This document shows positions 3,010-23,855 of a stretch of DNA of 64,000 bases, piece by piece. This DNA is from Gammaproteobacteria bacterium TMED78 (GTDB taxonomy: Bacteria > Pseudomonadota > Gammaproteobacteria > Steroidobacterales > Rariloculaceae), in the NCBI GenBank assembly GCA_002171615.1, contig NHEF01000010.1, positions 62,001 to 126,000 of the forward strand. The letters are read 5' to 3'. Within the stretch, counting starts at the first letter, position 1. Every line of letters starts with the position of its first letter. The translations under genes and the position numbers were made by a program. The notes beneath the pieces are model-generated. The model did not search any database and was not told the DNA's origin. It worked only from the letters and a program-made list of their open reading frames with translations.

Positions 3010-3061
3010 TTTTTTTATCTAATGAATATAAGCTATAGATAAAAACTAGGGAGTGTATTTT

Positions 3062-3523
3062 ATGCCATTTGAATTAAAAGTTAATGGGGAATTGAAAATA
3101 TTAGATGTAGAGCCATCTTCGCTTTTGTTGTCCGTTCTTCGAGATGATCTTGAACTGAGTGGCCCAAGATTTGGATGTGGCGTTGCCCAATGCGGAGCTT
3201 GTACGGTCCTAGTAGATGGCCAGCCAATTAGGTCATGTGTTACTCCTATCTCTGCCCTATCTGGAAAAGAAATTACAACGATAGAGGGTCTAGGTAATCG
3301 AGAATCACCTCATCCATTACAAACTGCCTTTATTGAAGAGCAGGCTGCTCAATGTGGTTTTTGCTCTAGTGGAATGATAATGTCAGCAGCTAGCTTATTA
3401 GAAAAAAATCCAAAACCTACGGATCAAGATATTAAAGATGCTTTAAATGCAAATTTATGTAGATGCGGTACGCACACGAGAATACTCAAGGCTGTAAAAA
3501 AAGCTTCGGAGGATCTATCATGA
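3062..3523 (+). CDS. Molybdenum hydroxylase small subunit, [2Fe-2S] (IorA/CoxS-like)
   Basis: The track opens at a GTG at 3053, but the ATG at 3062 (MPFELKVNGE) has AGGGAG 8 nt upstream and fits family starts, giving 153 residues. It carries both iron-sulphur motifs: a ferredoxin-type set GCGVAQCGACTVLVDG...RSC in the first half and the second-domain set AQCGFCSSGM...NLCRCG near the end. It passes electrons from the molybdopterin subunit encoded next. The stop overlaps the next start as ATGA, indicating translational coupling. No FAD (CoxM-type) subunit is encoded nearby, which fits the two-subunit isoquinoline-oxidoreductase type. Confidence 0.93.
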   Translation: MPFELKVNGELKILDVEPSSLLLSVLRDDLELSGPRFGCGVAQCGACTVLVDGQPIRSCVTPISALSGKEITTIEGLGNRESPHPLQTAFIEEQAAQCGFCSSGMIMSAASLLEKNPKPTDQDIKDALNANLCRCGTHTRILKAVKKASEDLS

Positions 3524-5766
3524 AAAAGAATATTGAAATCTCAAGAAGAATTTTCCTTCAAAGTGTATCTGCTCTAGCAATCCAAGTTACAATTCCTGAT
3601 ACATCTTTTTCTCAAGCAAACTTACCGAGAAGCATTTCTGATAACCCTAGTCTTAATCTCTGGCTAAGAATAAATAGCGATAAAACAGTTTCTCTATCAA
3701 TGGGTAAAGCTGAATTAGGTCAGGGCATAAGAACATCTTTAGCTCAAATAGCAGCAGAAGAATTAGATATTCACTTCAATAGAATAAAAGTACAAGACCT
3801 TGATACAGATCACTCACCAACAGAAGGCAGGACAACAGGAAGTACATCTATCGAAAGAAGTGGAGTAGCTATAAGAATGGCGTCTTCAGAAGCTCGACAC
3901 CTTCTCCTTGAAAATGCTGCCGCAAAACTTTCTTCGCCTTCCGGAATAATTGATATAGATGAACTATCTGTAAATGATGGGCAAATACTCATTAATGGAA
4001 ATAGCTCTAGTCTGAGCTACTGGGATCTTCTTAGCAGTGAAGATTTTAACACAAAAATCTCTGGGCTAATCTCCCCTAAAGAACCAAAAAATCACAGTAT
4101 AGTTGGTTCTTCTCAAAAGAGACTTGATATCCCAGCTAAAGTTTTTGGGGAGCCAGCATATGTTCATGATATTAGAATGCCAAATATGCTCCATGCAAAA
4201 ATGGTGAGGCCAGAAATAGATAGTGCTAATCTAGTTTCTACTCAACCAAAGATAGTAGATGAAATTGAGGGAGTTATATCTGTTGTGCAAGATGGTTCTT
4301 TTCTTGCAGTTGTAGCTGAAAAAGAAGAGCAAGCAGTATCTGCAGCTGAAGCCTTAAGAAAAGTAACTATCTGGGAACAGTTTAGAGAAATACCTAGCCA
4401 AGATAGCTTCCCTAATGTGCTTAGAGAGTTAGAAGCACTTGACCCTGAAGTTATTTTTGATAATAAATCAAAATCTTCAAGTACAAAATCTGATAATGAT
4501 AGAGAATTATCAGCTGATTACTCTAGACCTTATATTGCTCATGCCGCTTTATCTCCATCTGCAGCTGTTGCAATGTGGGATGGAAATAGACTTACAGTAT
4601 GGAGCCATACTCAAGGCGTCTTCGAGCTAAAAGGAGCTATTTCCACCGCACTAGCCATAGAAGAATCAAAAGTTAGATGTATTCACGTAGAAGGTGCAGG
4701 CTGTTATGGACACAATGGCGCTGATGATGTGGCACTAGATGCAGCAATGATTGCTATGAGATTTGAGAGACAGCCAATTAAGCTTATCTGGTCAAGAGAA
4801 GATGAATTTAGACGAGAGCCATATGGTTCGGCTACAAGTATAAAGATTACTGCAGGACTTAATCCTTCTAATAAAATTTCTTACTGGGATTATGACCACT
4901 GGACCTGTACCCACTCAACAAGGCCATCTGGAGGAGTAGGAGCTGCTAATCTTCATGCATCTATTCAAAAAAATAATCCCTTACCTAATTCTGCTAGATA
5001 TTCACTTCAGAACCGCTTCAACGGTGGTGACCGAAATGCTGTAGCACTTTACGACTTACCCGAGCACAGGGTTACTAGACACTTTATCTCTGAAAATCCT
5101 CTAAGAGTTTCAGCACTGAGAGGCCTAGGGGCTCATGCAAATGTTTTTGCAATAGAGTCATTTATGGATGAGCTTGCCAAGGAAGCTGATGCAGATCCTA
5201 TTAGTTTTCGAATTGAACATCTTAAGGATTACCGTGCTAAAGCAGTTCTTGAAGAGGTAAAAAAATTGGCAGAGAGTAAAAAGAGGCTAGAAATCCCTGA
5301 AAACTTTGGGAGAGGTGTCGGTTTTGCTAGATATAAAAATACTAGTACCTATTTTGCTGTAATTATAGACTTAGGTGTTAACTTAAGTACTGGCGTTATT
5401 AATGTTCATAGAGCTTTTGCAGCTGTAGATGCAGGACAAATTATAAATCCTGACGGTGTTACCAATCAAATAGAGGGTGGTATAATACAAGCGACTAGCT
5501 GGACCCTAAAAGAATCAGTAAAGTTTTCAACTTCTGGCATAGAAAGTACCAACTGGGCTACCTATCCAATTCTCCGGTTCTCTGAAATTCCCTCGGTTGA
5601 GGTTAGCTTAATCAATAGGCCAGATTTAGCATCTTCTGGGCCTAGCGAATGTGCTCAAGGGCCTACATCTGCAGCAATTGCTAATGCAGTAGCAAACGCT
5701 ACAGAGCTTCGTATTAGAGACCTGCCTCTCACTCAAGAGAAAATAATCTTAAATCTAAACTCATAA
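3520..5766 (+). CDS. Molybdopterin-binding large subunit (IorB-like), Tat leader
   Basis: The track start at 3463 lies inside the small subunit. The ATG at 3520 overlaps its stop (ATGA) and has GGAGG 7 nt upstream, giving 748 residues, the usual IorB size. The leader contains SRRIFLQ, a twin-arginine motif, so the folded enzyme is probably exported. MGKAELGQGIRTSLAQIAAEEL is the typical first cofactor segment. LRGLGAHANVFAIESFMDELA lies in the substrate and cofactor domain. GPSECAQGPTSAAIANAV near the end holds the Glu expected as catalytic base. Isoquinoline, aldehyde or another heterocycle could be the substrate; family membership is sure, substrate is not. Confidence 0.9.
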   Translation: MKKNIEISRRIFLQSVSALAIQVTIPDTSFSQANLPRSISDNPSLNLWLRINSDKTVSLSMGKAELGQGIRTSLAQIAAEELDIHFNRIKVQDLDTDHSPTEGRTTGSTSIERSGVAIRMASSEARHLLLENAAAKLSSPSGIIDIDELSVNDGQILINGNSSSLSYWDLLSSEDFNTKISGLISPKEPKNHSIVGSSQKRLDIPAKVFGEPAYVHDIRMPNMLHAKMVRPEIDSANLVSTQPKIVDEIEGVISVVQDGSFLAVVAEKEEQAVSAAEALRKVTIWEQFREIPSQDSFPNVLRELEALDPEVIFDNKSKSSSTKSDNDRELSADYSRPYIAHAALSPSAAVAMWDGNRLTVWSHTQGVFELKGAISTALAIEESKVRCIHVEGAGCYGHNGADDVALDAAMIAMRFERQPIKLIWSREDEFRREPYGSATSIKITAGLNPSNKISYWDYDHWTCTHSTRPSGGVGAANLHASIQKNNPLPNSARYSLQNRFNGGDRNAVALYDLPEHRVTRHFISENPLRVSALRGLGAHANVFAIESFMDELAKEADADPISFRIEHLKDYRAKAVLEEVKKLAESKKRLEIPENFGRGVGFARYKNTSTYFAVIIDLGVNLSTGVINVHRAFAAVDAGQIINPDGVTNQIEGGIIQATSWTLKESVKFSTSGIESTNWATYPILRFSEIPSVEVSLINRPDLASSGPSECAQGPTSAAIANAVANATELRIRDLPLTQEKIILNLNS

Positions 5767-11644: not shown

Positions 11645-12652
11645 ATGACATTAAAACAACTCAGATACTTGATATGTATTGCTGACAATGGATTAAATAT
11701 TTCATCGGCAGCAGAGAAGCTATTTACAAGCCAGCCAGGGATAAGTAAGCAACTAAAATATCTAGAAGCAGAGCTTGGTATGCAGTTATTCAAAAGGAAA
11801 GGAAAAAGCCTCACTTCAATCACAAGCGCTGGTTTTGAAATAATTGAAAGAGCAAGAAATATTTTAAGAGAATCCGAGAATATTAAAAATTTAGCTGGGG
11901 ATCTTAGTGACGAAGAAGAGGGCAAATTATCTATTGCAACAACTCATACTCAAGCTAGATATATTTTGCCAGATGTTATAAAAAACTTCGTTAAAAAATA
12001 TCCTAAAGTTGATTTAGAGCTACATCAAGGAACTTCAGAACAAATAGCAGAATTAGTTAATACTCATCAAGTTGATTTTGCTATGGCAACAGGAGCTACT
12101 AAATATTTTCCTAGCTTAAAAATACTTCCAATCTTTAATTGGAATAGAATAATTTTAGCACCTAAAAATCATCCAATAACTAAATTACCCCTAAATTTAG
12201 ATTCACTTGCATCTTTTCCCTTAGTTACTTATATCTTTAGTCTTACAGGTGACTCATCATTCAAAGAAAGTTTTCAAAAAAAGGGGCTTAATCCTCGTGT
12301 TGTATTTACAGCTAGAGATGCAGATATAATTAAAACCTATGTCCGTATTGGTATGGGAGTAGGAGTAGTAGCATCAATGACATTTGAGATAGGAGATTCT
12401 AAAGATTTGGCTGCTTTAGATGCATCTGATTTATTTCCCGAAGTAACAACTTGGATAGGCTTTCCTAAAGACATGGTCCTAAGAAGCTATATGACAAAGT
12501 TTATCAATATGCTTTCTCCAATTTATAACAAGCACTTAATTAAAAAAATAATCAGTTGTGATGACCAGATTTCAATTGATAATTTGATAAGTAAAATTGA
12601 TTTTCCTGTATATAGATTTTCTTCAAAGGAAAATAGAGTAGATTTAGTTTAA
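11645..12652 (+). CDS. cysB: LysR-family regulator, CysB-like
   Basis: 335 residues. The N-terminal winged helix-turn-helix is MTLKQLRYLICIADNGLNISSAAEKLFTSQPGISKQLKYLE. The effector domain begins with LSIATTHTQARYILPDVI and QGTSEQIAELVN, the signature of CysB/Cbl, whose TTHTQARY loop binds sulphate or acetylserine. This suggests control of sulphur assimilation; divergent cysK is the obvious target. The C-terminus is somewhat longer than short LysR proteins, as in CysB. Its 3' end overlaps the convergent FAD-oxidase gene by 9 nt. Cbl or another paralogue is possible. Confidence 0.85.
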   Translation: MTLKQLRYLICIADNGLNISSAAEKLFTSQPGISKQLKYLEAELGMQLFKRKGKSLTSITSAGFEIIERARNILRESENIKNLAGDLSDEEEGKLSIATTHTQARYILPDVIKNFVKKYPKVDLELHQGTSEQIAELVNTHQVDFAMATGATKYFPSLKILPIFNWNRIILAPKNHPITKLPLNLDSLASFPLVTYIFSLTGDSSFKESFQKKGLNPRVVFTARDADIIKTYVRIGMGVGVVASMTFEIGDSKDLAALDASDLFPEVTTWIGFPKDMVLRSYMTKFINMLSPIYNKHLIKKIISCDDQISIDNLISKIDFPVYRFSSKENRVDLV

Positions 12653-14002
12653 TTTTTTTGCTGTCAGAATTCCAGATTCCATTGCGCCTTCCATGCCTCT
12701 ATTCTCTTTTGCTAAATGCTCGCCACAGAAATGAATATTATTATGAGACATCCCAATAATTGAAAAATACTTACTAATTTGACCTGGTTTGTAGTATGCC
12801 CATGCGCCTTTGGAAAATTTTTCATTACCCCAAGAAACAAGGTCAATGAATTCTAATTGTCCCTTTATTGCAGGCCTTAAGCTTTCAATAGTTTTAATTA
12901 TCAGCTCCCCTGCTTCTTTTTTTTGTAACTTATCAAGCTTATTTGCATTTTCTCCAAAGACCCATGAGGTAAAACTTGTGATCTCATCTGGGCTTTTACT
13001 ATCCCTTGATGCACTAAACATCCCAGCTAATGAATCTGTAAATAAACTAGGATTATATCCATCTAATTCCCAAAATTTTGATTTATAACTAAAATAAATT
13101 TGCGTCATTGGCTGATAAGGTATGTTATTTATTGCTTCATACTGTTTTGGGGGAAGAGTGGGTGTAAATATAATTCCTTTCAATACACTCAAAGGAACTG
13201 AACAGATCACATGAGTAGCTATATATTTGCTTCCATCCTCACAAAATATTTGTGCCTCATCTTTTCCTGAATTAATATTTAAAACATTTTTCTTAAAGTG
13301 AACTTCATTTTCTAACTGAGAGGACATAGCATCAGTAAAGGCACTGACTCCATTTAATGCTGTGTAACCAATTACTTTATCGTCTATAATTTTCTGATCT
13401 GAGGAAAATGCCGCTCTATACAATAATAAAAGTGTAGAAATATCTTTAGCATCTAAACCATAACTAACATTTATACCATAAACTAGCTTAATCTGATCTT
13501 CACTAAAACCTTTTCTCTTTAACCATTGATCAAATGGAATATCATAAATAAAATTCTTCTTATCTAACCACTCTCCAGCACTATTTAATGGGTTATATTT
13601 CTTAGTAAGCACTCTATATAATGACCATGGCATAATATTTCTAAACTTTTCAGGAAAAATATTTTTTTTACTACTAGGCCAATCTTTTTGTATAATTATT
13701 TCATTATCTAAAGCAAAGTCTTGCTCCTTAAAAAAAGAAAGCATATGAGAAACGTCAATCAGATCAATATTATTTCTTTTTGCAAATTCTATGACCATTT
13801 TATACTTAGCACCTATATAGGTTCCTCCTGCTTCTCTATTGCTACCAAAATGTTGCATAGAGTGAATTCTTCCACCAACTCTATTATTTGCCTCAATCAC
13901 TTGAACACTTAATCCCATTCTCTGTAATTCTAATGCAGCTGATAATCCAGATAATCCTGCACCAATAACAATAACTGATCGCTTTATTTTTTTTGATGAC
14001 AC
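12644..14002 (-). CDS. FAD-dependent amine-oxidase-family protein, last gene of heme operon
   Basis: The track ORF begins at 14080 inside hemH. I favour the GTG at 14002, which overlaps the hemH stop as TAGTG and yields SSKKIKRSVIVIGAG, 452 residues; an ATG at 14026 is the alternative. The Rossmann dinucleotide site is VIVIGAGLSGLSAALEL with VIEANNRVGGRIHS. The C-terminal FAD segment is NIHFCGEHLAKENRGMEGAMESG. Internal motifs (AGGTYIGAKY, WGNEKFSKGAWAYYKPGQ) look like monoamine oxidases rather than classic HemY. Its position at the end of a complete heme operon suggests it oxidises a porphyrinogen (CgoX/HemY role). That is inference; a plain amine oxidase remains possible. Confidence 0.75.
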   Translation of the reverse strand: MSSKKIKRSVIVIGAGLSGLSAALELQRMGLSVQVIEANNRVGGRIHSMQHFGSNREAGGTYIGAKYKMVIEFAKRNNIDLIDVSHMLSFFKEQDFALDNEIIIQKDWPSSKKNIFPEKFRNIMPWSLYRVLTKKYNPLNSAGEWLDKKNFIYDIPFDQWLKRKGFSEDQIKLVYGINVSYGLDAKDISTLLLLYRAAFSSDQKIIDDKVIGYTALNGVSAFTDAMSSQLENEVHFKKNVLNINSGKDEAQIFCEDGSKYIATHVICSVPLSVLKGIIFTPTLPPKQYEAINNIPYQPMTQIYFSYKSKFWELDGYNPSLFTDSLAGMFSASRDSKSPDEITSFTSWVFGENANKLDKLQKKEAGELIIKTIESLRPAIKGQLEFIDLVSWGNEKFSKGAWAYYKPGQISKYFSIIGMSHNNIHFCGEHLAKENRGMEGAMESGILTAKKLN

Positions 14003-15084
14003 TAATCTATTTCTTCCGCTTGGCATAAAGAGGGCTTTGTTGGTCCGGACCTTCCAGATAGACAGCAATCTGGAGGACAATAATTATGACTTGGGCCTAA
14101 AACTCCCAAACTAGGTCTATTGCTATCCCCCCTTAACCGCTCTTGAATTAAGCTTGTTACCATAGATATATAAGTTGGATGGTCTCCGACAGTATTAGCT
14201 CTAACCATATTTATATTTTTCTCTTTAGCTATTGCTTTTGCCTCTACATCAAGATCAAGAATCACCTCCATATGATCACAAACAAAACCTATAGGAACTA
14301 TAACTAAATTCTTATATCCTCTGCTTGGTAAGCCTTTGATAGCTTCTTCTATATCTGGTTCAAGCCATGGCTCTCCATAAGAGGCATTATTACTTTGGAA
14401 TATGAGTTCCCAATTTTTAGCTCTTAATGAACTTGCAACTAAAAAACTAGCTTCCTTTAATTGAGCTACATATTTAGTATTTTTAGCCATTGAAAGAGGT
14501 AAGCTATGTGCTGTAAAAAAAATAATCGTCTCTTTCTCATCAAATGACCCAAAGCCTTCAATAGCATCCTTGGCTCGAGAGGTAACTGCTTCTATGAAAC
14601 TAGGATGATTAAAGCCTAATCTCAGTTTATCCACTTTAAAAGGGCTGCCTAGAGTCTCATTAGCTACATATAGATCTTCTCGGTATTTCCTACAACCACT
14701 ATATGAACTAAAAGTGCTTGTAACGAAAGTTATAATATTTTTTACACCATCATCTTGCATAGCTTTAAATGTATCTTTAAGCATGGGATGCCAATTTCTA
14801 TTACCCCAATAAACAGGTAAATCAATATTATTCTTTAATAAATCTTTCTTTAGTGCAGTTATAAATTTTCTAGTTTCTTCATTTATTGGACTTATGCCAT
14901 CAAATTGTTGATATCTTTTAGCTATGGCATGTTTAGCTCTATCTGGAACATTTAATCCTTCTAGTACATTATCCAAAAATGGCAGAACGTCATCCATCCC
15001 CTCGGGCCCCCCAAAAGAAAGCACTAATAAAGCATCATAATTATTACTGCCGCCATCAATTAAATGTTGTAATTTACTTGCCAT
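14002..15084 (-). CDS. hemH: Ferrochelatase, actinobacterial-like Cys-rich type
   Basis: 360 residues. It inserts ferrous iron into a porphyrin. YDALLVLSFGGPEGMDDVLPFLDNV, GISPIN, VYWGNRNWHPML and SYSGCRKYREDL follow the actinobacterial ferrochelatase pattern closely, unlike typical gammaproteobacterial HemH. The catalytic His is in FFTAHSLPL (His193) and the acidic partner in DHMEVILDLD (Glu273). Cys131 (in YSGC) and a C-terminal NYCPPDCC cluster (Cys336, 340, 341) are candidate [2Fe-2S] ligands, as known for mycobacterial HemH. Such enzymes usually act on coproporphyrin III. It starts 3 nt after the hemQ-like stop. Confidence 0.92.
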   Translation of the reverse strand: MASKLQHLIDGGSNNYDALLVLSFGGPEGMDDVLPFLDNVLEGLNVPDRAKHAIAKRYQQFDGISPINEETRKFITALKKDLLKNNIDLPVYWGNRNWHPMLKDTFKAMQDDGVKNIITFVTSTFSSYSGCRKYREDLYVANETLGSPFKVDKLRLGFNHPSFIEAVTSRAKDAIEGFGSFDEKETIIFFTAHSLPLSMAKNTKYVAQLKEASFLVASSLRAKNWELIFQSNNASYGEPWLEPDIEEAIKGLPSRGYKNLVIVPIGFVCDHMEVILDLDVEAKAIAKEKNINMVRANTVGDHPTYISMVTSLIQERLRGDSNRPSLGVLGPSHNYCPPDCCLSGRSGPTKPSLCQAEEID

Positions 15085-15087
15085 TAC

Positions 15088-15852
15088 CTACTTAAGAGAA
15101 ACTCTATACTCATCTATACCTTGACTTTGATAATGCCAAATACTCTTTCCGACAAAGAAAGGTCCTAAGCTTTCTAAATATTGAGAGGTTTGTTCAGTTG
15201 TTCTCATTTCTTCAACGACAGCAGAAAGGGGATGTATATGAGAGCCTAATAATCCAATAACAAAATCATTATCATTTTTATCTAATCCATGACAAGCCAG
15301 TCTTATATCTGTAGCTAAGTTATCATGGCCATATCTTTTTGCTAAACTACCGTGTTCACCTAGAATTTTCTTTTGTTTAGCTTCTGGCAAAACATAAAAT
15401 TCCTTCTTTCTCCGAAGTGGATACCAAATTCCAAACTCATTATTTTTATCAAGAACCTTACGCAAAGGTCTGGCCAATAAGGTTTCTTCTAGGTCTTGCT
15501 CATAACCAATAGAATAAGTTCTTCCTAGCATATCAAATTCAGGCTTATGATTAAGTAGGGAAAAAGATTTTGATTGAAAAATTTTTCTTAAAGAATTTGA
15601 TCCAAGGCTAATATATTCATTTCTATACCAATTAATAATTCCTATACCTGTAGGATCATTAAGATCTTGATAAATAACAGCAGATATGTCACTTCTTTTA
15701 AAAGCCCTAGTAATATCCTTTAACATTTCATTATCTTTACAATTATTAAAGGCCGTAAATTTTATAAATAATCTTGTATCAAGGGAAATCTGCTTCCCAT
15801 CTTTCATGCCTTTTTCGCTTAGATCGAGTATATCCTCTTTTTTATCAGCCAT
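15088..15852 (-). CDS. hemQ: Chlorite-dismutase-family protein, HemQ/ChdC-like
   Basis: 254 residues. HemQ (ChdC) converts coproheme to heme b with peroxide. IWYPLRRKKEFYVLP...ILGEHGSLAKRY matches the family core; Tyr144 aligns with the reactive tyrosine and His167 (EHG) with the proximal heme ligand by spacing. GLDKNDNDFVIGLL, EEMRTTEQTSQYLESLG and PFFVG are further family signatures. The N-terminus (about 1-20) is charged and probably flexible. It lies between hemE (8 nt upstream) and hemH (3 nt downstream), which favours coproheme decarboxylase over chlorite dismutase. The function is inferred; key residues were aligned from memory. Confidence 0.8.
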   Translation of the reverse strand: MADKKEDILDLSEKGMKDGKQISLDTRLFIKFTAFNNCKDNEMLKDITRAFKRSDISAVIYQDLNDPTGIGIINWYRNEYISLGSNSLRKIFQSKSFSLLNHKPEFDMLGRTYSIGYEQDLEETLLARPLRKVLDKNNEFGIWYPLRRKKEFYVLPEAKQKKILGEHGSLAKRYGHDNLATDIRLACHGLDKNDNDFVIGLLGSHIHPLSAVVEEMRTTEQTSQYLESLGPFFVGKSIWHYQSQGIDEYRVSLK

Positions 15853-15860
15853 ATTATCTA

Positions 15861-16880
15861 TTACCTATTCTCTTCATTATGTATTTCATCAATTAAAGCA
15901 TCTACACTCTCTAAAGGAGTGCTTGGCATAATGCCATGTCCGAGATTCATAATATGGCCAACTGGGTCAACACTTTTAAGAATTTTTCTTGTCTCTTGGC
16001 GCGTTACTTCCGGGCCAGCAACAAGAATCGCAGGGTCTAAATTACCCTGAATTGCCCTATTCTTTCCATAAAGATTTTTTATCTCTGATAAATTAACCCT
16101 CCAATCAATAGCCAGCACCTCAGAAGGTAGAGCAGCATAAGAGCTAATTAAATGTGGAGCATTCTGTAGAAAGAGAATTCTAGGCACATTAGTTTTACCT
16201 ATTTCAGAAAGTAAAAATTCTAAATGGGGCTTAATGTGTCTCTGCCAACTATCTAGAGATAATAAACCAGCCCAAGAATCAAATATTTGTACTGCATCTA
16301 CACCTGCTTCTACCTGACTTTTAAGATAGCTAATCATATGTAATGTGATTTTTTCTAATAGTCGTTCCATAACTTCTGGCTCTGAAGCTAAGAAAGATCT
16401 TAATTTTGGAAAATCCTTATTACCTTTGCCTTCAACTAAATAAGCTGATAGTGTCCATGGAGCACCACAAAAGCCTAATAATGCTATTTCATTAGATAGC
16501 TCACTTCTTGTTTGAGCAATTGCCTTCATTACTTCTGGAGCAATTTCTTCTGATCCCGTCTCAATAAGCTTATCTACATCTTTATTGTCAGAGATAGGAT
16601 TAGTAATAACCGGGCCAGGGTCAAAATCAAAATCAATTCCTAAAGATGGAACAGGACTCATAATATCAGCAAAAATTATAGCTGCATCTAAATTAAATCT
16701 CTTAATAGGAAGAAGAGTCACCTCGGTAGCAAAATCAGGTGATCTAGATAAATCTTTAAAACTATGTGTTTTTCTCAGAGTTCTATATTCCGGCAAATAT
16801 CTTCCAGCTTGCCTCATAATCCATAAAGGCCTTCTACTAGTTTTTTTTCTATATATAGTTTCTAATAATATTTTCTTCAA
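15861..16880 (-). CDS. hemE: Uroporphyrinogen III decarboxylase
   Basis: 339 residues, normal size. It removes four acetate carboxyls from uroporphyrinogen III to give coproporphyrinogen III, the branch point between the two heme routes. The N-terminal signature RRPLWIMRQAGRYLPEYR carries the conserved Arg pair. IIFADIMSPVPSLGIDFDF holds the catalytic Asp. The C-terminal NLGHGIMPSTPLESVDALI is also typical. The start is TTG at 16880 with AAGGA 8 nt upstream. It is flanked by the response regulator gene (19 nt) and hemQ-like gene (8 nt). Confidence 0.96.
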   Translation of the reverse strand: MKKILLETIYRKKTSRRPLWIMRQAGRYLPEYRTLRKTHSFKDLSRSPDFATEVTLLPIKRFNLDAAIIFADIMSPVPSLGIDFDFDPGPVITNPISDNKDVDKLIETGSEEIAPEVMKAIAQTRSELSNEIALLGFCGAPWTLSAYLVEGKGNKDFPKLRSFLASEPEVMERLLEKITLHMISYLKSQVEAGVDAVQIFDSWAGLLSLDSWQRHIKPHLEFLLSEIGKTNVPRILFLQNAPHLISSYAALPSEVLAIDWRVNLSEIKNLYGKNRAIQGNLDPAILVAGPEVTRQETRKILKSVDPVGHIMNLGHGIMPSTPLESVDALIDEIHNEENR

Positions 16881-16899: not shown

Positions 16900-17610
16900 T
16901 TAATTATCTTCTGGAGAAATTGTAAATCTATAACCTACTCCTCTAATAGTATGAAAATATTGAGGTGATTCTGGATTAATTTCAAACCTTTTCCTTAGCC
17001 TAACTATAAAATTATCAATGGTTCTAGTAGATGGAAATACTTCATAGCCCCATACTTTATCCAGTATTTCTTCTCTTGGTATAACGTTTTCCTTATTCTC
17101 TGAAAAAAGCTTCAATATCATAACTTCCTTGTAAGTCAATATATGGTCAGCCCCATCCCATGATTTTGCCTGATAGGTTTTAAAATCAATAGAATTCTCA
17201 CCAAATTCAAAAATAGAATTTTTGCCATTTAGCCATTCAGTCCTTCTCAATATTGCCGAAATCCTCAATAATAACTCCTTCAAGTGAAAAGGTTTGCCCA
17301 GATAGTCATCTCCACCAACCTCAAGACCAGCAATTCTATCATCTAAGCTATTTTTAACTGTCAAAAAAAGTATTGGTACATTTAATCCTGCAGATCTAAT
17401 CCTATTACATACCTCAATGCCATCTAGCTTAGGCATCATTACATCGAGTAAAATTAGATCGTAGATGCCTTCTAGTGCCTTACGTAGCCCTTCTTCGCCA
17501 TCATGAGATATTTCAATATCATAACCCTCAGCTTCTAGGCTATCCCTTATTCCTTCAGCAATATTAATTTCATCATCAATAACTAAAATTTTATGCATCT
17601 TTTTATCCAT
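16900..17610 (-). CDS. OmpR-family response regulator in heme operon
   Basis: 236 residues. Receiver domain 5-120 has the acidic pair DDE, phosphoacceptor Asp in LILLDVMMPKLDG and Lys in GKPFHLKELL. The C-terminal winged helix has LTYKEVMILKLFSEN, VWGYEVFPSTRTIDNFIVRLRKRFE and RGVGYRF. It follows its kinase by 6 nt and precedes hemE by 19 nt. A second ATG at 17598 is also possible. Likely DNA-binding target unknown; autoregulation of the heme operon is a reasonable guess. Confidence 0.93.
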   Translation of the reverse strand: MDKKMHKILVIDDEINIAEGIRDSLEAEGYDIEISHDGEEGLRKALEGIYDLILLDVMMPKLDGIEVCNRIRSAGLNVPILFLTVKNSLDDRIAGLEVGGDDYLGKPFHLKELLLRISAILRRTEWLNGKNSIFEFGENSIDFKTYQAKSWDGADHILTYKEVMILKLFSENKENVIPREEILDKVWGYEVFPSTRTIDNFIVRLRKRFEINPESPQYFHTIRGVGYRFTISPEDN

Positions 17611-17616
17611 TACTGA

Positions 17617-18615
17617 TTATTTTTGCCAAGAAATAATAAATTTAGCCCCTTTATTCATTCCTTCACTTATAGCCTCTATCTTTCCTTCTGTTAAGTTAAC
17701 TAATTTATTAACAATATATAATCCCAATCCGCTACCAGGCATTGTTCTTACTAACTCATCACCAGATCTATAAAACTTCTCAAAAATCATTAGTTTATCT
17801 TCTTCTGGGAAGCCAATGCCATTATCCTTAAAAGTTAATTTTACTTCGTCATCTCTATACTCAGTCTTTATTTCAATATTAAAAGTATTTGCAGCTTTAC
17901 ATGCTTTAATTGAATTATCTATTACATTTCTAATTATAGACTCAAGAAGTATTCTATCTGAGTTAAGAGTTAAATTTTTATCTAAATCTAATGAAAAGTT
18001 CATTTTTTTTAATGAATCATCTGAGAAATCAGCTAAGCAAGACTCAACAATACTACTAATATAAATCTCTTCTCTTACGATCATAATCTTGCCTGATTCT
18101 ATCTTATTTGTATCTAATAAATTATCAACCATTCTTAAAAGTCTATCCACATCACTTAGAACTCTTATCGCTCCATCCTTATGCTCACCAGAAACTTTAT
18201 CAAACAAAATAGTCTCTGCTGTTAGCCTCATACTAGTTAAAGGTGTTTTTAATTCATGAGACACAGCTGCAAGAAAATTCTGCTGTCTTTTTCTCAGTTC
18301 ATATTCTCTTCTTATTGTCTTTGTCAGTATCCCAATACCTATAACTAAAACAAATAAAAAGAACGCTCCTTCCCAAATAACCCTATTTATTCTTCTTTCT
18401 GTAGTTTCATATAAAACTTCAATATACTCTTCATTATACCTAGCTGATTCTTCATTTGGATCAGTAGTAATAAGAACGGATAAAAACTCATCTCTAACTG
18501 ATTGTGCATAATCTATCTGATCAGTAATCCAAAATGTAACTTGTGCTATCGAGACAATAAGAAGAATTAATAACCCTATCTGCAAAACATGGATGGGATT
18601 AAATCTAGAAAACAT
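17617..18615 (-). CDS. Sensor histidine kinase in heme operon
   Basis: 332 residues. Two transmembrane helices (about 9-30 and 81-101) enclose a short periplasmic loop of about 50 residues, with no recognisable sensor fold. The H-box is AAVSHELKTPLTSMRLT, the N-box SIIRNVIDNSIKAC, then FKDNGIGFPEED (G1) and GSGLGLYIV (G2). It overlaps the hemL stop by 11 nt and the response regulator follows after 6 nt, so its expression is tied to heme synthesis. The small loop suggests sensing within or near the membrane. The signal is unknown; heme, iron, porphyrin or redox state are candidates. Confidence 0.92.
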   Translation of the reverse strand: MFSRFNPIHVLQIGLLILLIVSIAQVTFWITDQIDYAQSVRDEFLSVLITTDPNEESARYNEEYIEVLYETTERRINRVIWEGAFFLFVLVIGIGILTKTIRREYELRKRQQNFLAAVSHELKTPLTSMRLTAETILFDKVSGEHKDGAIRVLSDVDRLLRMVDNLLDTNKIESGKIMIVREEIYISSIVESCLADFSDDSLKKMNFSLDLDKNLTLNSDRILLESIIRNVIDNSIKACKAANTFNIEIKTEYRDDEVKLTFKDNGIGFPEEDKLMIFEKFYRSGDELVRTMPGSGLGLYIVNKLVNLTEGKIEAISEGMNKGAKFIISWQK

Positions 18616-19924
18616 TTATCTCACCGCTATTTTTGTTAAAACTACAGCTAGTAAATATTTTTTCTAACTTTTCTGAGAAAAAATCAATATGCTCTTTTGT
18701 GTGCTCAGATGATAGAAATCCTACTTCATAAGCAGATGGAGCAATAGATATTCCATTCTCAAGTAATGCATGGAATAATCCTGAAAAAGTTTTAGCAGAT
18801 CTTTCATCAATACTCTCAGAAGATCTTGGTTGAGTATTTGTATGAAGTGCTAACCAAAAAATTGAACCAACCCTAGAAAAATATAAGCCAAAAGGCGCTT
18901 TGCTTTTAATTGAATTTACAGAATTTTCTAAATATCTTCCTAAATCATCTAAATAATCCCAGACATTTTCATTCTTTAAGTGTCTAAGTGTTGCAAGTCC
19001 AGCTGACATTGCAACAGGATTGCCAGATAATGTACCGGCCTGATATACGCCTCCAGTAGGAGCAAGATTTTTCATTATCTCTTTACTTGAGGCAAACGCT
19101 CCAACTGGCAAACCTCCTCCAATAACTTTTCCAAAAGTTGCTATATCTGGCTCTATATTATAATAACTAGCCGCACCTCCTTTCCCTATCCTAAAGCCCG
19201 TTATTACCTCATCAAAAATTAAAATTGTTCCATACTTTTCACATAATTCTTTTAATAACTTAATAAATTCTTTTCTTTGGACTAGAAGTCCATTATTTGC
19301 AGGAATAGGCTCAATTATCACTGCAGCAATATCAGCGCCTTCATTTAAAAAAAGTTCAGTTAAGCTCTCCTCGTTATCTAATTCTAATACTCTAGTTAGA
19401 TCAGTATAATTATCGGGGATACCTTCTGAAGAAGGCTTACTAAAAGTTGCTAAACCCGAGCCAGCTGAAACTAATAATGAATCTACGTGTCCATGATAAC
19501 AGCCTGAGAACTTAACTATTAGATCTCTTTTTGTTGTTCCTCTAGCAAGTCTTATTGCGCTCATCACTGCTTCTGTCCCTGAGGAGACAAACCTAACTTG
19601 CTCAATACCAGGATAAGAAGATACCACTTCTTCAGCTAATATAATTTCAGGCTCGCAAGGGGCTCCGAATGAAGTACCCAAGCTAGCGGCCTCTTTAATT
19701 GAATCAATAATTACTGGGTTAGAATGACCAAGAATAAGAGGACCCCATGATCCCATAAAATCTAAATATTGATTCCCGTCCTGGTCATTAATATAAATAG
19801 AATTTCCTGATTTAATAACTATTGGATCTCCACCAACTGCCTGGAAGGCTCTTACGGGAGAATTAACTCCAGCAGGAAGGACATTCTGGGCTCTATCAAA
19901 TAAATCTTTAGATCTAGACCTCAT
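18605..19924 (-). CDS. hemL: Glutamate-1-semialdehyde 2,1-aminomutase
   Basis: About 439 residues, PLP enzyme. It converts glutamate-1-semialdehyde to 5-aminolevulinate. PAGVNSPVRAF at the N-terminus, FVSSGTEAVMSAIRLARG, the PLP Asp in LIFDEVITGFR and the Schiff-base Lys in TFGKVIGGGLPVGAFA are all present. The track opens at 19930. The ATG at 19924 overlaps the hemB stop as ATGA and has AAGG 9 nt upstream, so I prefer it. With hemA this marks the C5 route to aminolevulinate. Confidence 0.96.
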   Translation of the reverse strand: MRSRSKDLFDRAQNVLPAGVNSPVRAFQAVGGDPIVIKSGNSIYINDQDGNQYLDFMGSWGPLILGHSNPVIIDSIKEAASLGTSFGAPCEPEIILAEEVVSSYPGIEQVRFVSSGTEAVMSAIRLARGTTKRDLIVKFSGCYHGHVDSLLVSAGSGLATFSKPSSEGIPDNYTDLTRVLELDNEESLTELFLNEGADIAAVIIEPIPANNGLLVQRKEFIKLLKELCEKYGTILIFDEVITGFRIGKGGAASYYNIEPDIATFGKVIGGGLPVGAFASSKEIMKNLAPTGGVYQAGTLSGNPVAMSAGLATLRHLKNENVWDYLDDLGRYLENSVNSIKSKAPFGLYFSRVGSIFWLALHTNTQPRSSESIDERSAKTFSGLFHALLENGISIAPSAYEVGFLSSEHTKEHIDFFSEKLEKIFTSCSFNKNSGEINVF

Positions 19925-20904
19925 AACCATCTACCTTCTATTGCATCTCTAGCATGATAAGAAATTATCTGATTTGCACCAGCTCTTGCAATTGCATATA
20001 AATTCTCCCTCACAACTAATGCTTCATTTAGCCACCCTCTTTCAGCCGCTGCCTTAATTGATGCATACTCTCCAGAAACATTATAGGCTGATAAAGGTAA
20101 TGAAGATTCAGAACTTACTGCTTTAATAATATCAAGAAAAGCAAGTGCGGGCTTTACCATTAATATATCAGCACCTTCTTCTTCATCTATTTTTGCCTCT
20201 CTAATTGCTTCTTTGGTATTTCTTATATCCATTTGGTAAGTTTGCCTATCACCCCAAACAGGAGATGAATCTGCAGCCTCCCTAAATGGTCCATAATAAG
20301 CTGACGCATATTTAACTGCATAAGACATAATTCCTACATCTTCTAAATCTTCTTTATCAAGAGTAGTTCTAATCTTCTTAACTCTACCGTCCAACATATC
20401 TGAAGGGGCAACAATATCTACTCCTGCTTCAGCATGGCTCAAAGCTATTTTTGCTATGGCCTCTATAGACTTATCATTAACTATCTTCTCATTTTGAATG
20501 AAACCACAATGCCCATGATCGGTATATGCACAAAGACAAACATCAGTAATCACAACGACATCATCTCCGAAGTTAGCCTTGAGGCTCCTTATTGCACCCT
20601 GTAAGGTACCATTTGGATCCCATGCCTGCCTTCCATCACGAGACTTATCTTTTGCATCCTTTGTCTGTCCAAAAAGTAAAATAGCTTTAATACCTAACTT
20701 CAAATCAATATCTACCTCTTTTAAAAGTTTATCTATACCTAACCTATACCTACCAGGCATTGAAATAATTTCTTCTTTCGCATTTTTTTTAGCCAAAAGG
20801 AAATGGGGTATAATAAATTGCTTTGAGGATATACTTAGCTCAGAATTTAAATCTCTGATTGCTTTAGACCTTCTATTTCTCCTTGGTCTTTTAATAATAT
20901 TCAT
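19921..20904 (-). CDS. hemB: Delta-aminolevulinic acid dehydratase (porphobilinogen synthase)
   Basis: 327 residues. It condenses two aminolevulinates to porphobilinogen. The metal site DVCLCAYTDHGHCG has three cysteines, the zinc-type triad, not the Asp-rich magnesium form. Schiff-base lysines are expected in APSDMLDGRVKKIR and ILMVKPALAFLDI. The N-terminus RPRRNRRSKAIRDL is typical. The start overlaps the hemD stop as ATGA, and the end overlaps hemL likewise, so translation is coupled on both sides. Confidence 0.96.
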   Translation of the reverse strand: MNIIKRPRRNRRSKAIRDLNSELSISSKQFIIPHFLLAKKNAKEEIISMPGRYRLGIDKLLKEVDIDLKLGIKAILLFGQTKDAKDKSRDGRQAWDPNGTLQGAIRSLKANFGDDVVVITDVCLCAYTDHGHCGFIQNEKIVNDKSIEAIAKIALSHAEAGVDIVAPSDMLDGRVKKIRTTLDKEDLEDVGIMSYAVKYASAYYGPFREAADSSPVWGDRQTYQMDIRNTKEAIREAKIDEEEGADILMVKPALAFLDIIKAVSSESSLPLSAYNVSGEYASIKAAAERGWLNEALVVRENLYAIARAGANQIISYHARDAIEGRWL

Positions 20905-21617
20905 TTCATCACCTTAATTAATCCTGCCAAACTTGGCTCCCTTGACATACCTGTCACTTCAATACCTAAGCTCTTGGCCGTCTCATTAGTCGTTGGTCCA
21001 ATAGTATAAATATCTTTTTTAACATCAACTTCTACCTGATTAATAAAACCTATTATAGAAGAGGGGCTAGCAAAAAAAATAGTATTTATATTAAAGCTGG
21101 ATAATAACTTTTTATTTTCTAATTTCTCAAATGGAATAGTTCTGTATGTATTCACCCTTTCACAAAATATTTCTGCTGAATTTAGTCGAAATTCAATTAC
21201 ATCTGAAGCATTTTCTGCAACTACCAATAAAACGCTACTCCCTCTTTTGATGATTGAAAGAAGTTCTTCAGAAAAGGATCTTGAATCGCTCTTTTTTCCT
21301 ATATAATCGACTCTATTAAAATAATTTCTACATCTTTCTGCAGTGCTTTTTCCTATTGCTGCTATCTTGGTGTAAGAATCTATTTCACAATTTTTAATTT
21401 TATTAAAGCTTTCTACGCCATTTTTTGATGTAAAAATAATCCATTCTTTTTTATTTATATTATATGAGCTATCAAGTAGAGAATTCTCAATAGATTCTAA
21501 ATATATACAAGGAAAAATAGTGCTACCAATACCTAGTTTATCTAGTTCGTCTGACCACTCAAAACTATCTTCACTACTCCTAGTCACTAATACTCTATAA
21601 TCAGATTTTTTACTCAT
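20901..21617 (-). CDS. hemD: Uroporphyrinogen III synthase
   Basis: 238 residues. It closes hydroxymethylbilane to uroporphyrinogen III with inversion of ring D. The family is poorly conserved; support comes from YRVLVTRSSEDSFEWSDELDKLG at the start, IIFTSKNGVESF, TKIAAIGKSTAE, the late FFASPSSIIGFI and YTIGPTTNETAKSLG, and from position directly after hemC (8-nt overlap) and before hemB (ATGA overlap). Confidence 0.88.
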   Translation of the reverse strand: MSKKSDYRVLVTRSSEDSFEWSDELDKLGIGSTIFPCIYLESIENSLLDSSYNINKKEWIIFTSKNGVESFNKIKNCEIDSYTKIAAIGKSTAERCRNYFNRVDYIGKKSDSRSFSEELLSIIKRGSSVLLVVAENASDVIEFRLNSAEIFCERVNTYRTIPFEKLENKKLLSSFNINTIFFASPSSIIGFINQVEVDVKKDIYTIGPTTNETAKSLGIEVTGMSREPSLAGLIKVMK

Positions 21618-22524
21618 AATTTGTTAATATTTCCATAGCTTTTTTAAATATTATCTGTCTATTTTTTCCACTCACTCTCGCCTCTATCAACTCTTTATCT
21701 AATTCTAATCTAGCGAATAAATTAATATCGCCAGTATCTCCTTTTGGAGATCTACAATATGCACCAAATGGTAACTCACAACCTCCTTCAAACTGAGCTA
21801 ACAAAAGCCTTTCTAAGTTTATATCTTTTGTTGAATCTATATCTGCAATATTTTTTATAACCTTGCTTAAATTTTTATTTCCTTTAAGGCATTGGAGCGC
21901 GATCGCGCCTTGTGCTGGGGCAGGTATAAATTCCTCAGGATCTAATCTAGTTACAGAAAATTCATCAAGATTTAAATCAAAACCATCATCTAAAAGCCTT
22001 TTAACTCCTGCATTGGCTAGAACTATTGCATCATAACCCTGATTAATTTTTTTTATCCTTGTAGGAACATTACCTCTTATAGGCTTAATTTTTAAATCTT
22101 TTCGGAAATGTCTTAGCCAGGATTTACGACGAGCAGATGAAGTACCAACTACTGATCCTTCTTTCAATGGTATAAGCCCAAGTGAGTTATCATAATAATT
22201 TTTGTTTGAAATAATAATATCAGCAGGATCTACTCTTTCGCTAATTGCTGCTATGGTAAGCTCTTTAGGTGAGACTGTTGGCAAATCTTTTAAAGAATGG
22301 ACAGCTAAATCAATTTCACCATCAATCAATGCATTTTCTATTTCTTTTACAAAAACACCTATTGGCCCAATATTGCTAAAAGTAGTTTCATCAGAAAGAT
22401 CTCCAGCAGTATCTATAGTTATTAGCTGAGATTGATAGCCCATATCCAATAAGCTATTGGCTACAGTCTTAGATTGGCTTATAGCTAAATCAGAACTTCG
22501 AGTGCCTATTCTTATCTTCATCAT
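21610..22524 (-). CDS. hemC: Hydroxymethylbilane synthase (porphobilinogen deaminase)
   Basis: 304 residues. It polymerises four porphobilinogens on a dipyrromethane cofactor. IRIGTRSSDLAISQSK opens domain 1; AVHSLKDLPT is the catalytic Asp region; GTSSARRKSWLRHFR and IRGNVPTRIKKI bind substrate carboxyls; FEGGCELPFGAYC contains the cofactor-bearing cysteine. The start overlaps the hemA stop (ATGA). Confidence 0.96.
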   Translation of the reverse strand: MMKIRIGTRSSDLAISQSKTVANSLLDMGYQSQLITIDTAGDLSDETTFSNIGPIGVFVKEIENALIDGEIDLAVHSLKDLPTVSPKELTIAAISERVDPADIIISNKNYYDNSLGLIPLKEGSVVGTSSARRKSWLRHFRKDLKIKPIRGNVPTRIKKINQGYDAIVLANAGVKRLLDDGFDLNLDEFSVTRLDPEEFIPAPAQGAIALQCLKGNKNLSKVIKNIADIDSTKDINLERLLLAQFEGGCELPFGAYCRSPKGDTGDINLFARLELDKELIEARVSGKNRQIIFKKAMEILTNYE

Positions 22525-23855
22525 CTTACTTTCTCATTTCTCTTCTCAGGCACTAATCTCATAGCATTTTTTAATTCTTTAGAAAAATCATCATCGATGC
22601 CTTCTAAAAAAGCTTCTAGTGAGCCCTCGGGGCCCTTTTGCATAAGACCTCTTAACCCAACAGATGGAATATGAGCAAAGCGTTTAGCAAGAGCATTACA
22701 CCAAACCTTTATTGCATCTTTTTCTTTATGGCCTATACCTTTTAATTCTTTTTTCATTAGCTTTTTAAGTCCTTCATTTGCAGTAAAAAGATACTTATCT
22801 TGCAAAATAGAAAAAACAGGAGCATAAATTCTTTCTGCATATTTTCCAGAAAGATCTTCTAGCGATTTATCAATAATTTCTCTAGCTATAGCTGCTTCTC
22901 TTTTTCTTACCTCTTGATTTAATTTAGCTTCGTTATTTATTTGGTCTAAACTCACTCTTTTAATACCAAAAATATTACATGCTTCGGGACTAATATCAGA
23001 AGTTAAAGACATATCAATAAACAACTTATCACCCACTGATTTTTTTTCGTTACATATAGTATTTAAAAAATTTTTATCAAAAATATAGTTACTAGAGCTA
23101 GTAGATGATAGAAGACTTGAAAATCTACTTGGTGAAGATAAAAAATTATCTAAGGAATAATGCTCAGTATTATACTTTTTAGAAAGTGAAAAAAATTTAC
23201 TTTTAGTTCTATTTACAAAGAAAAATGGAATTTTTAAATCGTAAAGAGATTGTGCTAACCTTGTTGTAAAATCTGAAAAACCAACTATAGCAACAGGCTC
23301 TTTATGAGTATTGAAATGTTTCTCAATATGTTTGATAGCTAACTCTGATAAAGAAGTTTTACCCTTACCTATCCCTGTTACTTTTCTAACATTTGCTGAA
23401 ACCTTTAATGCCTGTTCAAATAGTAACTCTAATTTTTTATCTAAAAAATTATTTTTTAGATGATAATCTCTACACTTTCTCACTTGACCCGTTATCTCTA
23501 CTTCTCCTAAGGCCGCAGAATCAAGACCTGAAGTGACTAAAAAAATATGCTCACAGGCTCCCTCAGAATGCCAAGCCTTAAGTTTTCTTATTGCTTCACC
23601 TGGCAAGGCTATATTTCCTGTTAATAACTCATAAATGAAAGGTCTTAAATCATTATATTTAGTATCTTTAGTAGTAGAATAAATAACTTCAACTCTATTA
23701 CAAGTTGATAAGTAAGCAATACCTGAAAGACTATATTTGGCTTTAAAATTATTTAATTGCTTTGCTAGGTTTTTCTCAGATAGAAGATAATTCTGTAGAT
23801 CAGCACTTTTACTTTGCTTCCATGAAATCCCCACAACATTTAGATCATTAAACAT
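22521..23855 (-). CDS. hemA: Glutamyl-tRNA reductase
   Basis: 444 residues. First enzyme of the C5 pathway, reducing glutamyl-tRNA to glutamate-1-semialdehyde. The catalytic cysteine is in AYLSTCNRVEV. LGEVEITGQVRKC replaces the more usual GExQILGQV motif. The NADPH domain has VAIVGFSDFTTRLAQSL, with GFSDF instead of GxGxM, a divergent nucleotide motif. The C-terminal dimerisation helix is present. Many residues differ from enterobacterial HemA. First gene of the ten-gene heme operon; promoter proposed at 23885-23914; no clear ribosome site. Confidence 0.92.
   Translation of the reverse strand: MFNDLNVVGISWKQSKSADLQNYLLSEKNLAKQLNNFKAKYSLSGIAYLSTCNRVEVIYSTTKDTKYNDLRPFIYELLTGNIALPGEAIRKLKAWHSEGACEHIFLVTSGLDSAALGEVEITGQVRKCRDYHLKNNFLDKKLELLFEQALKVSANVRKVTGIGKGKTSLSELAIKHIEKHFNTHKEPVAIVGFSDFTTRLAQSLYDLKIPFFFVNRTKSKFFSLSKKYNTEHYSLDNFLSSPSRFSSLLSSTSSSNYIFDKNFLNTICNEKKSVGDKLFIDMSLTSDISPEACNIFGIKRVSLDQINNEAKLNQEVRKREAAIAREIIDKSLEDLSGKYAERIYAPVFSILQDKYLFTANEGLKKLMKKELKGIGHKEKDAIKVWCNALAKRFAHIPSVGLRGLMQKGPEGSLEAFLEGIDDDFSKELKNAMRLVPEKRNEKVR

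Follow-up and report, generated by a model that had tools for sequence, protein, structure and literature searches.

An eleven-gene heme operon with a probable coproporphyrin ferrochelatase in a gammaproteobacterium of the UBA6522 lineage

The window analysed here, a stretch of 64,000 nt from contig NHEF01000010.1 (positions 62,001 to 126,000) of Gammaproteobacteria bacterium TMED78, contains an operon of 11 genes on the minus strand, in the order hemA-hemC-hemD-hemB-hemL-histidine kinase-response regulator-hemE-chdC-like-hemH-oxidase. The tenth gene, hemH, specifies a ferrochelatase of 360 aa (14002-15084, minus strand); its open reading frame has no internal stop, and the plus strand of the same interval carries many stop codons. 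The product scores 258 bits against the ferrochelatase model PF00762, for which the cut-off is 27, the catalytic residues H193 and E273 are conserved, and it is the sole ferrochelatase of the 1.57-Mb genome. The host, a gammaproteobacterium with a reduced genome, belongs to the UBA6522 lineage, UBA6522 being termed a gammaproteobacterial order or lineage in the literature (PMC13234336, PMC9262712). From the analyses described below it appears likely, with a probability of about 0.8, that the operon specifies a complete coproporphyrin-dependent (CPD) heme pathway and that HemH is its coproporphyrin III ferrochelatase (CpfC). The genes, listed from the first to the last of the operon, are as follows.

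22521..23855, minus strand: hemA, glutamyl-tRNA reductase (PF05201, 93 bits; PF01488; PF00745)
21610..22524, minus strand: hemC, porphobilinogen deaminase (PF01379, 224 bits)
20901..21617, minus strand: hemD, uroporphyrinogen-III synthase (PF02602, 120 bits)
19921..20904, minus strand: hemB, 5-aminolevulinate dehydratase (PF00490, 443 bits)
18605..19930, minus strand: hemL, glutamate-1-semialdehyde aminomutase (NF000818, 564 bits, over cut-off)
17617..18615, minus strand: histidine kinase (HisKA and HATPase_c; two transmembrane segments predicted by eye)
16900..17610, minus strand: OmpR-family response regulator (family model match; synteny)
15861..16880, minus strand: hemE, uroporphyrinogen decarboxylase (TIGR01464, 386 bits, over cut-off)
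15088..15852, minus strand: chdC/hemQ-like, predicted divergent coproheme decarboxylase, 254 aa (PF06778, 57 bits; fold match of an AlphaFold2 model)
14002..15084, minus strand: hemH/cpfC, probable coproporphyrin-type ferrochelatase, 360 aa (PF00762, 258 bits)
12644..14002, minus strand: flavin amine-oxidase-like protein (PF01593, 196 bits)

The genes are tightly packed, with intergenic gaps of -11 to +19 bp and most genes overlapping. The chdC-like gene lies 3 bp upstream of hemH, and the oxidase gene probably starts with GTG at 14002, so that start and hemH stop overlap as TAGTG. This order is largely conserved across the host family, in the relatives L002-L012 as well as in further family genomes, and the oxidase gene is found directly behind hemH in all members whose sequence reaches that far.

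To define the pathway, gene content was compared among 22 genomes of the host family, 17 genomes from other families of the same order, and a sample of 369 Gammaproteobacteria. PF06778, the family of the ChdC-like protein, was detected in 22/22 host-family genomes versus 0/17 from the other families, in only two of the 369 Gammaproteobacteria, and in 29 of 33 genomes of other phyla bearing the nearest HemH relatives. Alternative genes of heme synthesis gave the reverse picture. HemF was absent from 21 of the 22 family genomes; in the exception (G019), contamination is about 5% and the gene lies close to the end of a contig. Neither HemN nor canonical HemY exceeded the cut-off in any of the 22, HemJ gave weak matches in three, and HemG was over its cut-off in two. 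In the host genome itself, HemF, HemN, HemG, HemJ and canonical HemY were all missing at the profile cut-offs, while most sister families possess the standard HemF/HemN plus HemJ or HemG. No known route leads to protoporphyrin IX when these enzymes are missing, but coproporphyrin III can still be made. Since the ChdC-like gene is present family-wide, and adjoins hemH, and HemF, HemN and canonical HemY are missing, coproporphyrin III is the likely substrate of HemH, as the original prediction, made from the sequence of the window, had proposed. The CPD route has been described as almost exclusively Gram-positive (PMC10427985).

The type of the ferrochelatase was determined from a maximum likelihood tree of 85 proteins, calculated by a quick search with support from the Shimodaira-Hasegawa-like approximate likelihood ratio test (SH-aLRT) only. 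The 17 HemH proteins of the host family form one clade (SH-aLRT 100), which is nested in a clade of 64 sequences (SH-aLRT 100, stem 2.02) also holding Acidobacteriota, Planctomycetota, Chloroflexota, Melainabacteria, Myxococcota and some Actinomycetota. Ten ferrochelatases of sister families are found at the far side of the tree, nine of them on a branch of 3.26 changes, and where tblastn detects any similarity to the order's own enzymes, identity is about 22%. The proximal residue is Phe (F24 in the window protein) in all members of the 64-sequence clade but one, which has Tyr, as opposed to Met or Leu; proximal Phe has been reported for actinobacterial CpfC and Tyr for that of Firmicutes (PMC10427985). 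Thus HemH has the marks of a CpfC, a proximal residue other than Met or Leu and a ChdC partner in a genome lacking HemF and HemN. When the AlphaFold2 model of HemH was used for a fold search, the coproporphyrin ferrochelatase of Listeria ranked first.

Placement away from the sister families, and not within gammaproteobacterial HemH, bears out the earlier suggestion of lateral transfer. That an ancestor of the family gained HemH from a source outside the Gammaproteobacteria is well supported as to direction. The term "actinobacterial" used in the original prediction describes the style of the motifs correctly, but not the position of the protein in the tree. Identity search and tree agree that the closest relatives are from Acidobacteriota, Planctomycetota and Chloroflexota, and an actinobacterial origin as such was rejected; the Actinomycetota proteins fall outside the subgroup of the host family (f1), Acidobacteriota, Planctomycetota and Chloroflexota, with weak support (88). 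Because placement within the 64-sequence clade is weakly resolved, no donor phylum is named here. In the scenario proposed, hemH would have come from a donor pool of Acidobacteriota, Planctomycetota, Chloroflexota or Actinomycetota, entered the family's ancestor, replaced the protoporphyrin-type HemH once, and been inherited vertically thereafter. Base composition shows no sign of a recent transfer, a reading that was also considered and rejected: the GC content of the operon (33.2%) is like that of its surroundings (33-36%).

The step between HemE and HemH requires oxidation of the porphyrinogen, and the flavoprotein encoded behind hemH is the candidate. It scores 43 bits with the HemY model TIGR00562 (cut-off 97.85), over the N-terminal FAD region only, and BLAST comparisons with true HemY proteins gave short weak matches of 50-92 residues, so that canonical HemY/CgoX was rejected as its identity. 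Its best solved relatives are monoamine oxidase B (MAO-B) and L-amino-acid oxidases. MAO-B has a catalytic Lys near flavin N5 and a Cys that binds the flavin covalently. In all 13 family oxidases the Lys position is occupied by Gln, within an invariant Thr-Gln (MAO-B, GSVIKCIVYYKEPFW; L004, QPMTQVYFRHKSNFW), and in the alignment with MAO-B the Cys for the covalent flavin is lacking as well. With both hallmarks of a flavin monoamine oxidase gone, ordinary amine oxidation is unlikely.

By position and by elimination, the protein may be a new coproporphyrinogen III oxidase (CgoX), to which we would give nearly even odds. Such an enzyme would catalyse the reaction expected of CgoX/HemY and share with them the operon position and the broad flavin amine-oxidase superfamily, but it remains below the HemY cut-off and is closest to MAO-B. 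The authors describing CgoN (YtpQ; DUF1444) count three independent flavin porphyrinogen oxidases, CgoN included (PMC10965808), so the window oxidase could be another lineage. Several points weigh against the assignment: it is made from position and elimination only, sequence comparison leads to MAO-B and L-amino-acid oxidases and not to HemY, and a further oxidase is known in CgoN, which Bacillaceae and a few strains of Gram-negative bacteria possess (PMC10965808). They favour an alternative in which air, a CgoN-type enzyme or some unrecognised enzyme encoded elsewhere accounts for the oxidation of coproporphyrinogen III, and in which the flavoprotein does something else, for instance heme modification or conversion of an amine substrate. 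This alternative has a considerable chance of being correct, if below even. The position behind hemH, constant wherever the sequence reaches that far, the absence of canonical HemY, HemF, HemN, HemG and HemJ from the host genome, and the loss of both the Lys and the Cys argue against it.

A second question concerned the cysteines of HemH: C131, C336, C340, C341 and C354. The motifs named in the original prediction (LSFGGPEG, VYWGNRNW, SYSGCRKYRED, Cys131 and CPPDCC) were all found in the translation, but CPPDCC, which contains the CX3CC tail C336-X3-C340-C341, is near and not at the C-terminus, since 19 more residues including Cys354 follow. All of 54 aligned relatives, whose identity to the window protein is 45-59%, have C131, C336, C340 and C341. 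Among the 85 sequences of the tree, Cys131 is present in 64/64 inside the clade and in 0/21 outside, by which the idea of a [2Fe-2S] cluster is well supported at the sequence level. A relative from the actinobacterial phylum (L167) is the sole clade member without C341; it keeps C131, C336 and C340. C354 is almost confined to the host family, where 14 of 17 members have it and three have lost it. In the comparison with the human enzyme, C336 and C341 share columns with the cluster ligands C406 and C411, and C131 stands three columns after human C196. In the AlphaFold2 model, the mean predicted local distance difference test score (pLDDT) is 93 for the whole protein and 88 for tail residues 331-340.

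Cys131, Cys336, Cys340 and Cys341 thus probably bind a [2Fe-2S] cluster, four conserved cysteines being what is expected of a predicted [2Fe-2S] ferrochelatase. The cluster would dock the C-terminal tail on the core. The earlier note had picked the right, invariant cysteines; its comparison with known enzymes holds less strictly, the published motif being missed and C131 lying off the column of human C196. In the established mycobacterial and human [2Fe-2S] ferrochelatases, one internal and three C-terminal cysteines are likewise found, but the human tail is CX2CX4C instead of CX3CC, and for the window protein the cluster is predicted. The relationship is closer to a CpfC with a CX3CC tail (PDB 28wn; Planctomycetes, Acidobacteria, Actinobacteria), which belongs to the same clade, has the proximal Phe and the catalytic His and Glu, and agrees in the four cysteines as far as the alignment covers them. 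Unlike other CX3CC CpfC proteins, the present one occurs in Gammaproteobacteria and has Cys354 (CCLSGRPG...LCG).

A number of points speak against a cluster. The strict motif for [2Fe-2S] ferrochelatases, CX(1,11)CX(1,11)C in the C-terminus or an insertion (PMC8529089), is missed by one residue (C336-X4-C341-X12-C354), and Weerth et al. judged the CX3CC tails in Planctomycetes incomplete because a fourth cysteine was missing (PMC8529089). Judged from the alignment, Cys131 appears to be the obvious candidate for it. As the carriers form one clade, the co-occurrence of Cys131 and the tail counts as one evolutionary event, not many. In addition, the relatives in the 54-sequence alignment were collected with six search patterns, one of which (HNYCPPDC) contained the tail motif, so the invariance of the tail is possibly slightly inflated; Cys131 was part of none. 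It may be, then, that the CPD pathway is correct and the tail carries no cluster, but a zinc site, a disulfide or redox switch, or is a remnant. Palmitoylation, disulfides and redox switches have been listed as alternatives for CX3CC tails, and the cluster is dispensable for activity in bacterial enzymes (PMC8529089). We regard a tail without a cluster as unlikely, since the 54 sequences, drawn from many phyla, share four invariant cysteines and not three, Cys131 occurs exactly where the tail does, C336 and C341 match human ligands, and C131 is only about one helix turn from the C196 column.

The ChdC-like protein is divergent. PF06778 covers its C-terminal half only, but in a fold search with the AlphaFold2 model (pLDDT 70), coproheme decarboxylases were matched along the full length of the protein (E ~6e-12). 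Tyr144 aligns with the catalytic Tyr135 of Corynebacterium diphtheriae ChdC, and Tyr144, the axial His167 and Arg217 are invariant in the 22 sequences of this type and in 28 others. The catalytic Tyr and the axial His of a coproheme decarboxylase are thus present in a chlorite-dismutase fold in 22/22 sequences. The distal position, Gln in Listeria and presumably the column of the distal Arg in chlorite dismutases, is Asp182 in all 22; two residues on, Arg184 is invariant. An alignment by eye had suggested Arg184 as the chlorite-dismutase Arg, which was rejected when the profile alignment placed Asp182 there. Loop His118 in actinobacterial ChdC and an Asp in DyP peroxidases act as base for H2O2, and one may speculate that the distal Asp has an analogous function. 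In chlorite dismutases, Ile is found at the position of the ChdC Tyr and the distal Arg is catalytically important (PMC7611857). With Tyr144 present and the distal Arg replaced by Asp182, chlorite dismutase was rejected as identity of the gene. Fold, catalytic Tyr, axial His, conserved Arg and operon neighbours are common to ChdC/HemQ and the window protein, while the other ChdCs sampled mostly have Gln or Leu at the distal position instead of Asp182 with the invariant Arg184.

Two values weigh against its being a coproheme decarboxylase: 39.8 bits with the NCBIfam HemQ equivalog, which requires 235, and an identity of about 16-17% to other sampled ChdCs. If, in line with this divergence, the gene were a chlorite dismutase or an unrelated peroxidase, HemH could be a transferred protoporphyrin IX ferrochelatase. 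The model of the ChdC-like protein also matches chlorite dismutases (E ~3e-10), and some ferrochelatases accept either porphyrin in vitro. This reading is nevertheless very improbable. The genome lacks HemF, HemN and canonical HemY, HemG or HemJ for making protoporphyrin IX, the Tyr is conserved in 22/22 sequences with Asp at the place of the distal Arg, and a profile search of the PDB yielded coproheme decarboxylases and HemQ-type entries but no true chlorite dismutase.

One Myxococcota metagenome-assembled genome (MAG), IP29b_bin.34, has a ChdC-like protein of this divergent type, 42% identical to that of the window; no other of the 399 Pseudomonadota sampled has one. In this MAG the gene (L148:1441-2292) adjoins aroC, and a different part of the genome encodes a HemH (L077) that falls into one clade with that of the window; the MAG is possibly a link to the donor. 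The only other PF06778 match among the 369 Gammaproteobacteria (L119; G201:C41:38011-38382) is absent from the genus mate G049. The alignment shows IPI where the catalytic Tyr would stand, so that this match could come from a chlorite dismutase or from contaminating DNA.

A binning artefact, with the heme cluster as contaminating DNA in a gammaproteobacterial MAG, might be suggested by the many MAGs among the genomes compared and by depositor labels of Rhodospirillales/Rhodospirillaceae on three relatives (L004, L005 and L012), but it is refuted for practical purposes by the 394-kb contig, on which the operon adjoins recA and the division and cell wall (dcw) cluster with zapD, by the matching GC content, and by the presence of the heme gene set in 22/22 family genomes. 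At least one of the three, L005 (= G006), belongs to the same family as the host by genome kinship. ZapD (PF07072, 191 bits) and a CysB-type regulator encoded in the window fit a gammaproteobacterial host.

Other features of the window were also noted. Between hemL and hemE, the pair of histidine kinase and OmpR-type response regulator (16900-18615, minus strand) is kept in most family members; L009 and L012 are without it. The extracytoplasmic loop of the kinase is variable among the relatives aligned. Regulation responsive to heme or porphyrin is possible for this pair. An Rfam scan around the operon revealed no RNA regulatory elements. From 40974 to 63183, a long mur/fts (dcw) cluster is followed by lpxC, secA, a mutT-like gene, zapD, coaE and a prepilin peptidase gene, in an order resembling that of Gammaproteobacteria. 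At 3053-5766 on the plus strand, a [2Fe-2S] small subunit and a large molybdopterin-type oxidoreductase subunit (xanthine/isoquinoline oxidoreductase-like) were read from the translation; their boundaries overlap.

In the pathway proposed, HemA, HemL, HemB, HemC, HemD and HemE would lead to coproporphyrinogen III, which the amine-oxidase-like flavoprotein would oxidise to coproporphyrin III. HemH would insert Fe2+ to give coproheme, and the ChdC-like protein would use peroxide to remove two propionate carboxyls, yielding heme b. A single locus with all genes from glutamyl-tRNA to heme is also known from the CPD operon of Cutibacterium acnes (PMC10427985). The operon described here differs in belonging to a Gram-negative gammaproteobacterium, in containing a two-component system and a non-HemY oxidase, and in lacking a CpfC-ChdC fusion. 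The divergent ChdC-like protein with distal Asp and the MAO-like oxidase with invariant Gln look new. Taken to its full extent, the interpretation would be a family-wide swap to the coproporphyrin route, with a previously unrecognised flavin porphyrinogen oxidase that arose from monoamine-oxidase-like enzymes once the Lys for amine oxidation had been lost, a distal-Asp ChdC, and CX3CC tails that are true [2Fe-2S] sites together with the internal Cys. As a whole this remains tentative, at somewhat less than an even chance.

If it is true, the two heme routes are interchangeable as wholes in bacteria with an outer membrane, a point relevant to the open question why there are two of them. Two enzymes of the operon offer themselves for study, one a porphyrinogen oxidase candidate that may represent a new class, the other a probable ChdC whose distal residue differs, and the invariant set of four cysteines makes the disputed role of the CX3CC tail directly testable.

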